Made by a program: the position numbers and the translations under genes. Below are positions 25 to 2,494 of a stretch of DNA of 64,000 nt, piece by piece (position 1 is the stretch's first letter; every line of letters starts with the position of its first letter). Below the pieces are notes generated by a model. It had not been told where the DNA came from and searched no databases. It saw only the letters and a list, made by a program, of their open reading frames with translations. Origin of the DNA: Halobacteriales archaeon (GTDB lineage Archaea; Halobacteriota; Halobacteria; Halobacteriales; SKSH01); the NCBI GenBank assembly GCA_007118145.1, contig SKSD01000010.1, positions 1 to 64,000 of the forward strand. Direction: 5' to 3'.

Positions 25-723
25 ATGGATATCGACCTCCTTGATGGACTTGACGAGCAGGTGGCACTCGTCACGGGTGCCACCCGTGGCATCGGCGAGC
101 AAATCGCACTCGGTCTCGCCGACCTCGGTGCCACCGTGTATGGTGGTGCCCGTGAAACCGGGGATATCTCACATGATAGCCTCATCCCGATACAACTCGA
201 CGTGACTGCAGATCGCGACATAGCGACCACGATCGAGACCATCGACGATGCACATGGACACCTCGATATCCTCGTGAACAACGCCGGCATCGGTGGCCCA
301 CGAGCACCGCTGCATCGTAACGAGATGGCCGATATCGATGATACCCTCGATGTCAACCTTCGAGGGCCGATCCACCTCACCAGGTCCGCACTCCCACTGT
401 TGTTGCGCAACGATGGGGGTCGTGTGGTCAACGTCTCCTCTGGGATGGGTGCACTCGGCGAGGGTATGAGTGGCCACTACCCGGCATATCGCATCTCGAA
501 GGCCGGGCTGAATGGCCTGACCGTCTACCTTCACGGTGAGTATGCCGAGGAAGGTCTCATCGCCAATACCGCCTGCCCAGGCTGGGTACGTACCGAGCTT
601 GGTGCACCAGAGGCACCCAAGAGCCCGGCTGAGGGTGCTGAGACGCCCATCTGGCTCGCGCGATTCACACCTGGGAGTCCAGGTGGGACGTTCTGGCGTG
701 ATCTATCTCCGATCGACTGGTGA
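25..723 (+). CDS. Short-chain dehydrogenase/reductase (SDR)
   Basis: A 232-residue classical SDR, an NAD(P)-dependent oxidoreductase with a Rossmann fold, probably cytosolic. The cofactor-binding glycine motif TGATRGIG is at residues 17-24, the NNAG motif follows near residue 86, and the catalytic Ser (NVSSG) and YxxxK (YRISK) come later in the usual order. The length fits the family (about 230-260). The C-terminus, ending in a PGGTFWRD-type stretch, resembles carbonyl-reductase-like SDRs. The substrate cannot be deduced. The ATG at 25 is the first start; the bases before it contain a stop codon (tga at 10) that may end an upstream gene outside the window. It stands apart from the ABC genes downstream, which run the other way. 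Confidence 0.9.
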   Translation: MDIDLLDGLDEQVALVTGATRGIGEQIALGLADLGATVYGGARETGDISHDSLIPIQLDVTADRDIATTIETIDDAHGHLDILVNNAGIGGPRAPLHRNEMADIDDTLDVNLRGPIHLTRSALPLLLRNDGGRVVNVSSGMGALGEGMSGHYPAYRISKAGLNGLTVYLHGEYAEEGLIANTACPGWVRTELGAPEAPKSPAEGAETPIWLARFTPGSPGGTFWRDLSPIDW

Positions 724-804: not shown

Positions 805-1082
805 TAAGTGGAGAGGCACAGAGACCAGCCGAACCCGGACTGGAGCCGTTTTCCCCACCTCCATTACGACCGTGCCGACGATAGTCGGGTTCCCACAGGC
901 CGGTTACCCGGCGAGCGGTACTTGGTCTTTTCCTGCCCCCTCCGGAAGGGACAGCTCCGGGGTGGTGCGCTTCTCCTTCGGACCGTTCACCTTATGGTTT
1001 CAGTGAGCGACCCCAGATTGTCGCTTTTCGCAGTTGCGATCTTCGACAACCCGTCCAGTTGATCCGGTTGACCTCTGCGCAC
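805..1082 (-). ncRNA. Structured non-coding RNA of about 280 nt, family unidentified
   Basis: This stretch lacks a credible ORF but folds strongly when read on the minus strand. Bases 1063-1080 pair with 816-833 as a closing helix: 17 of 18 pairs, four of them G-U wobbles that would be A/C mismatches on the plus strand. Further helices are 1053-1058 with 835-840, 1044-1051 with 1016-1023 (an inner stem 1036-1039/1028-1031), 1006-1014 with 959-971, 951-958 with 842-849, a GUAA-tetraloop hairpin at 899-912 and a hairpin at 875-888. A TATA-like box at 1103-1112 predicts a 5' end close to 1082. Size and layout resemble SRP or RNase P RNA, but the hallmark motifs of both (SRP helix 8; RNase P GGAAAGUCC and ACAGAA) were not found. 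Confidence 0.6.
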
Positions 1083-1267: not shown

Positions 1268-2494
1268 TCACTCTCGACCGAGGGCGATCACCGGGTCGAC
1301 ACTGGCAGCTCGCCAAGCTGGATAGACACCGGCGAGCGCACCGACGATGAGACCCATCCCGGTGGCGATGACGACCCACTCAAGGGGATACACCATCGGC
1401 CATTCGAGTGCCATGACGCCGAGGGCTCCAATACCGAAACCGAGGAGGACACCCAGCAGTGCGCCGATCACCCCGAGGATGATCGACTCGACGAGGAACA
1501 ACTGGATGATGTGGCGTCGGGTCGCTCCAACCGACTTCATGATACCGATCTCACGTGTCCGCTCGACCACACTCACGATCATGATGTTCGCGATACCGAT
1601 GGCACCGACGACCAGTGCGATACCGGCAATCCCGGCGATGAAGACGGTGATCTGATCGAGCAGGTCGGTGATCTGCTGGACGAGATCATCGATCGTCTGG
1701 ACGAGGATCGTGTCTCGGTCGGATTTGAGTGCGTTCGCATCCGAGTCTCCATGGAGATAGGCTCGCGCCATATCCTGTGCTGAGCGGAGTGTCTCCAGGC
1801 TGTCCGCACCGATCACGAGCATCGGGTAGGCTCGTTCGTTCGTCCCACGAGGTGTCTCGACGATCTGCTGGTAGTGTGGGTCAACCGGGACGTAGATCGT
1901 CGGTGGCTGATTCGGGATATCCTCGTCGATGATCCCTCGTACAGTCACCGTCGTGACGACGCCACCCTCCCTGGTGAACGAGATGGTATCACCCACCTCG
2001 ACACCGTCGAAGCGATCGCTCACCTGCCGGTTGATCACCGCCTCGTTCGTCCCCATGTCGAACGCCTCACCGTCGAGGAAGGTGTCGAACGTGAATCCTG
2101 CTGGCGTCGTGGCCGATACACTCACCCCACCGGTCACCTGTTGGCCACCAACTCGTGTCTGCGTCACAGCTATCTGGCCGAGAGGTGCCACAAACGAGAC
2201 ATCCTCCATCGCCTCGATGGTCGCGATATCATGCTCGGTATAGATCGGCGTCATCGAGAAGATCAACCCGAAACCATCATCGAGTGGTGTCTGCGTCTGC
2301 ACGAGTAACAGTGGTTGGTCCCCGTAGAGTTCATCGAAGTTGCCGAGGACGTTCTCCGAGAAGGCACCGCCGAGTACCATGAATGTGATGATCGCACCCA
2401 CACCGATGATGACACCGAGTGTCGTCAATGTCGAGCGTAACTTATGCCCACGGATGGCTCGCCAGCTGAATGAGAACGTGTCGCGTGCTCTCAT
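1268..2494 (-). CDS. ABC transporter permease, MacB/FtsX type
   Basis: A 408-residue membrane permease of the MacB/FtsX (DUF214) family, which acts in ATP-driven export or in moving lipids and proteins at the membrane. One N-terminal membrane span (about residues 20-45, [14 protein letters not shown]) is followed by a large extracytoplasmic MacB-PCD domain (about 45-275) and a C-terminal FtsX domain with three spans (about 280-400), the usual layout. The FtsX core '[16 protein letters not shown]' is present. The ATG overlaps the stop of the ATPase gene by four bases, so the two are translationally coupled. The exported substrate is unknown; no membrane-fusion partner is visible nearby. Confidence 0.9.

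Follow-up and report, generated by a model that had tools for sequence, protein, structure and literature searches.

Near the start of the window, the term used here for the whole 64,000-nucleotide stretch of haloarchaeal DNA under analysis, a short-chain dehydrogenase gene (25-723, plus strand) and a MacB/FtsX-like permease gene (1268-2494, minus strand) converge on an interval that raises the question of what lies between them, and with what it works. The source genome (G000) measures 1.72 Mb and is 79% complete. On the minus strand, 805-1082 folds better than its dinucleotide shuffles (z = -2.97, none of 200 shuffles being equal), whereas the plus strand of the same interval has no such advantage (z = -0.99), which bears out the strand chosen in the original prediction. 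The interval holds a structured RNA of 278 nt, multibranched and closed by a long helix; its limits, which rest on the fold z-score, the family alignment and covariation, are approximate, and the 5' end is predicted near 1080-1082. Two mechanical open reading frames cross the region and neither is supported as a gene, in keeping with the view that no coding sequence fits.

DNA comparison uncovered two distantly related sequences, both from other families of the order, that share blocks of sequence with the window RNA, and a pattern search matched nine genomes (none with a reversed control pattern). One further pattern match, in Pseudoduganella (L093), had no model match and was put down to chance. 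Using a covariance model of the core (137 positions, built from six sequences including the window's), matches were found in 114 of 394 haloarchaeal genomes, many of them drafts, and in 44 of 95 genera at a cut-off of E <= 0.01. E-values reached down to 5e-36, although four matches lie above E = 1e-4 and may be false, and copies were likely missed because only the eight best candidates per genome were scored. With a model built without the window sequence, the window copy (core, 840-978) was the only match in the 64 kb (90.9 bits, E = 3.7e-19). When 40 RNA-negative genomes were searched permissively with model R2, no copy emerged; absence of the RNA is less certain than its presence, given the inserts in some relatives and the strict pre-filters. 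Covariance models also located the RNA in three genomes outside the order, two of which are the sole members of a separate order in the collection, one of these bearing the methanogenesis gene mcrA, while the third belongs to another family. Thus the original prediction's "new haloarchaeal RNA class" stands, with a family that extends beyond haloarchaea. This strongly conserved family of ~280-nt RNAs is previously uncatalogued and is not in Rfam; an earlier description under another name, for example in subscription journals, is possible.

Among the named organisms that carry the RNA are Halorussus, Haladaptatus, Halorarius, Salinigranum, Halomicrococcus, Halorutilus and Natrinema sp. SYSU A 869, where each of two megaplasmids (L164 and L165) holds one copy, one of them near transposase genes. 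A mobile-element or viral origin was considered and set aside: the exact pattern, a narrow test, gave 0 matches in 2.9 million viral contigs, and positions are stable within families. A few genomes carry two to four core copies in tandem (L092:6886-7516 in Salinigranum salinum, where the copies lie almost end to end; L115:2562-3156; L136:2515-2811). By eye, the copy most like window 840-978 is that of L110 (genome G239, family f4, HARP not detected), and transfer between families is possible. At several loci unlinked to HARP, the nuclease discussed below (L068, L071, L073, L048 and L163), tRNA genes or genes for tRNA or rRNA processing lie near the RNA.

Comparison of the relatives also supports the fold. 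Among 94 core sequences, in an alignment that was fitted to the model, standard pairs occupy 91% of paired cells, two-sided changes occur in 29 of 31 core pairs, and covariation scores 0.403, compared with 0.05-0.08 in controls with one strand slid; the nested multi-helix core had been anticipated from the window alone. The main helices, with P1 divided into three segments, are likewise borne out by 41 full-length sequences aligned independently with MAFFT (0.393 vs 0.08-0.14 in the controls), for a structure written by hand from one of those 41. The covariation that the original prediction proposed to look for is therefore strong in both alignments. The helices follow the order P1 [P2 hairpin] [P3 arm] [P5-P6 {P7 hairpin, P8 (P9 with a GNRA-type loop, P10)}].

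In the window copy, all of whose features lie on the minus strand, the closing helix P1 (segments a and b) pairs 1063-1080 with 816-833 much as first described, with standard pairs at 17 of 18 positions, four of them G-U, and a single A.C mismatch at 1068/828; the P1 segments covary among the 41 relatives. It continues as P1c (CUGGAC, 1053-1058, with GUCCGG, 835-840), in which 96.5% of cells are paired and six of seven pairs show two-sided change. The P2 hairpin (1016-1051; 1044-1051 with 1016-1023, and an inner 1036-1039 with 1028-1031) comes from the minimum-energy fold prediction and is variable in relatives. P3 (979-1014) covaries in relatives, but pairing in the window copy is unlike that of most of them, making this the least certain helix in the window's own RNA. 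The conserved core then comprises P5 (GGAG, 973-976, with 842-845; covarying), P6 (959-965 with 855-861; two-sided change in 7/7 pairs, one C.A mismatch in the window copy), the P7 hairpin (933-954; covarying in relatives, helices 10-11), P8 (GACC, 924-927, with GGUC, 868-871), the P9 hairpin (893-918) and the P10 hairpin (875-888; two-sided change in 5/5 pairs). P9 is supported by fold, covariation and conservation, and its GUAA loop (904-907, within the 899-912 hairpin noted at the outset) is real and matches the GNRA-type loop of most relatives.

The most conserved unpaired letters of the family include AAG..AAGUA and CGUA, which flank P8, GAACCGA opposite GGAAAACG between P5 and P6, and the P3 loops. 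A kink-turn was sought by eye in P3, whose loops depart from the canonical order. In relatives, the 3' side of P1 (GGGTYCAAATC; A5 columns 409-420) resembles by eye the T arm of tRNA, even though covariation places most of it in P1 pairing. Such a likeness in sequence may possibly amount to tRNA mimicry directed towards a tRNA-binding protein such as HARP.

How is the RNA expressed? A TATA-like box, GTATAAGG, is indeed found on the minus strand at 1103-1110, its centre 27 nt before the start of P1. In the corresponding stretch of relatives, ~38 nt before P1a, an AT-rich box (an 8-mer with at least 7/8 A or T) is present in 73% of 41 sequences compared with 7% for a control stretch; 32% of relatives have at least four consecutive T after P1, compared with 7% in the control. 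Given these promoter-like and terminal signals, the RNA is most probably transcribed on its own. In relatives from many families, the stretch separating the TATA-like box from P1 carries a conserved element, GGTAnCnTAC (A5 columns 33-47), that could be a regulator site overlapping the promoter; a promoter dyad shows a small excess only (5.12 vs 4.88 +/- 0.08). The position of the window RNA, downstream of the permease gene and on its strand, would also suit a cis-acting element (a riboswitch, leader or trailer) of a neighbouring gene. However, no single downstream gene recurs across families, the window RNA lies between convergent genes, and relatives have their own TATA-like box and in some cases the T-run after P1, so that a cis-acting role is very improbable.

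The size and multibranched fold of the RNA are similar to those of archaeal SRP and RNase P RNAs, and a divergent form of either had been offered as one of two explanations. That half of the original inference has not survived. The Rfam check advised at the time was run: neither the archaeal RNase P RNA model (RF00373) within 700-1270 nor the archaeal SRP RNA model (RF01857), helix 8 included, in the window region matched even at E <= 5. Moreover, the same genome encodes both RNAs elsewhere (RNase P RNA at C2:11998-12337, 202 bits; SRP RNA at C59:1254-1566, 194 bits). Because both have their own genes and no model matches the region, the RNA is neither of the two; the "weak RNase P-like stretch" once remarked upon is part of the new family's own conserved sequence. 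No Rfam 15 family reached its gathering cut-off in the window or in 16 loci of relatives, apart from tRNA genes elsewhere in those loci, and no C/D or H/ACA box guide family of Rfam matched in the window. Matches to ASdes (E = 0.44), HgcC, OxyS and CRISPR models were all sub-threshold and were judged to be chance. The probability that the RNA is a divergent SRP or RNase P RNA, or a member of another known family, is negligible.

A functional lead came from gene neighbourhoods. Clusters of neighbouring open reading frames were largely wrong-frame noise, as arises in GC-rich DNA, yet they pointed to one gene, and on Halorussus plasmids the gene annotated next to the RNA encodes an "RNA ligase partner protein" of Pfam PF08745, that is, HARP. 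HARP is a homologue of the Aquifex protein-only RNase P (PMC12153264, PMC10941002), which gives the RNA an unforeseen tie to RNase P of a different kind; its accession is printed as PF09745 in PMC12153264. Bacteria with HARP include Halorhodospira, Thioalkalivibrio and Aquificales. The two genes are arranged in several ways. In Halorussus and Haladaptatus (f17), HARP is divergent from the RNA, ~240-290 bp from the core, and the same orientation recurs in two f5 genera at ~230-250 bp. In f6, in one f4 genus (and Halorarius litoreus) and in f14, HARP is instead convergent with the RNA at ~60-85 bp, and in one f7 genome the gene order is HARP-Rnl3-RNA, Rnl3 being an RNA ligase. In many genomes with both, including the window's, RNA and HARP lie on different contigs or far apart; in G000, HARP (C39:2766-3377) and Rnl3 (C39:1529-2569) are unlinked to the window RNA. 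Since the two co-occur even when unlinked, their shared loss is not merely the loss of one stretch of DNA.

The association holds across the genome set of the RNA survey. HARP is present in 163 of the 394 haloarchaeal genomes, of which 105 have RNA and HARP, 9 have the RNA only, 58 have HARP only and 222 have neither (Fisher p = 9e-42); counted by genus, the figures are 41, 3, 18 and 33 (p = 2.6e-9). Genus membership does not explain the link, because shuffling HARP among species within genera gives 87.1 +/- 2.45 shared genomes and never reached 105 in 20,000 trials. Within the 23 genera in which HARP is variable, the RNA occurs in 50 of 80 species with HARP and in 3 of 102 without it; genus g18, identified as Halorussus by scores equal to those of named records, is a clear example with 5/5 and 0/13, respectively. 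Several of the nine genomes with RNA but no HARP are weak matches or incomplete genomes; three are solid, namely G239 and the congeneric pair G034 and G085. All three RNA-bearing genomes outside the order have HARP, compared with 13 of the 40 tested there overall. Near-identical HARP proteins occur both with and without the RNA, and on a tree of 49 HARP proteins RNA presence requires ten changes, which implies several gains or losses of the RNA, or missed copies.

The third component is the ligase. Seshadri and Gopalan (2025) tied HARP to Rnl3 and asked what explains genomes in which only one of the two is present (PMC12153264). Their association involves the same nuclease (PF08745), the same ligase (TIGR01209) and the same patchy distribution in halophiles, and is reproduced here, since all 116 genomes with Rnl3 have HARP; it concerns proteins only, however, and the main text describes no associated RNA gene (PMC12153264). 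When genomes with HARP are divided by Rnl3, the RNA is found in 59 of the 116 that have the ligase and in 46 of the 47 that lack it, the latter drawn from 15 genera and the one exception (G384) being 85% complete. A HARP genome without either companion is thus almost never seen. Haloferax volcanii, a control in these searches, has HARP and no detected Rnl3, and would on this pattern be predicted to carry the RNA. Rnl3 is present in 57 of the 58 genomes with HARP and no detected RNA, some of which perhaps hold missed copies; HARP and Rnl3 loci of RNA-negative genomes showed no diverged RNA copy beside HARP. Many f8 genomes (such as G289, G232, G387, G145 and G351) have divergent HARP and Rnl3 genes 0.7-1.6 kb apart, and the gaps examined there gave no RNA model match. 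In the sampled haloarchaea, the RNA fills the place of the missing ligase.

A functional pairing of the RNA with HARP is accordingly well supported, and we consider it highly probable. The link could instead be indirect, with the same selective conditions or one accessory pathway retaining both genes and no contact between their products, as might be expected of two genes that are patchy, found mainly in halophiles, and unlinked in most RNA-bearing genomes. Yet repeated adjacency in different orientations and families, together with the near-exclusive pattern in genomes with HARP and no Rnl3, suggests more than a shared habitat and leaves an indirect link rather improbable.

What might such a pairing achieve? 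HARP forms an oligomer that binds tRNA and carries a VapC-like PIN nuclease domain (PIN_5) (PMC10941002, PMC8266387), and an ancestry in toxin-antitoxin systems has been suggested for it (PMC6380272, PMC8266387). Reviews describe its function in archaea as unclear, as knockouts grow normally and the RNP form of RNase P does the tRNA work; the Haloferax volcanii knockout, for which no phenotype is reported (PMC10941002), neither supports nor excludes restraint of HARP by an RNA. The reading favoured here is that a free-standing gene encodes a trans-acting RNA of ~280 nt that is a dedicated partner of HARP, which we infer it binds and restrains or directs; the chances of this are about even. The RNA would bind the HARP oligomer directly, most likely on the tRNA-binding surface, and once bound would restrain or direct its nuclease activity, a need that may be relaxed where Rnl3 is present. 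Either the RNA would keep the nuclease in check or the ligase would mend its cuts, which fits the pattern of HARP with Rnl3 or with the RNA. Stated in full, and put forward only tentatively, halophile HARP would be one half of an RNA-protein system in which the RNA binds the oligomer and controls the nuclease in an antitoxin-like or 6S-like manner, Rnl3 being an alternative companion that repairs the cuts.

Two kinds of known system invite comparison. Type III toxin-antitoxin RNAs are short tandem pseudoknot repeats that lie upstream of the toxin gene and are co-transcribed with it. They too couple an RNA to an endoribonuclease, a likeness that would account for the near-constant presence of the RNA where HARP occurs without Rnl3. 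They differ in that the RNA described here is a single large multibranched molecule with its own promoter-like box, often unlinked to its putative partner, whose nuclease is of the PIN type; rather than short pseudoknot repeats directly upstream of a toxin, most genomes have a single unit and few have it in tandem. 6S RNA and Y RNA are structured RNAs that occupy the nucleic-acid-binding surface of a protein. By analogy, this is the mode of working that the present RNA may share, but their Rfam models do not match it and the partner protein differs.

The main rival to restraint or direction is that the RNA is a substrate of HARP, which would mature its 5' end, with Rnl3 perhaps joining the ends where it is present, before the finished RNA takes on some other task. 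A proposal of this kind has already been made for C/D box RNAs (PMC12153264). Were the RNA useless when unprocessed, its rarity without HARP (9 of 114 genomes, several of them weak or draft) would be expected; its base-paired ends lie close together, suiting end joining, and Rnl3 never occurs without HARP. On the other hand, the TATA-like box of the window puts the predicted start at P1, so that HARP would have no leader to remove, and 46 genomes with both HARP and the RNA have no Rnl3. We therefore regard a substrate role as unlikely, albeit less so than an indirect link.

To our knowledge, few large structured RNA families are known in Archaea, and the present work adds one that spans many haloarchaeal genera and reaches at least one order in which a member encodes MCR. 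For HARP, the RNA offers a direct handle on the role of this protein in archaea. If the proposed partnership is true, the "protein-only RNase P" of halophilic archaea would work with a cognate RNA.
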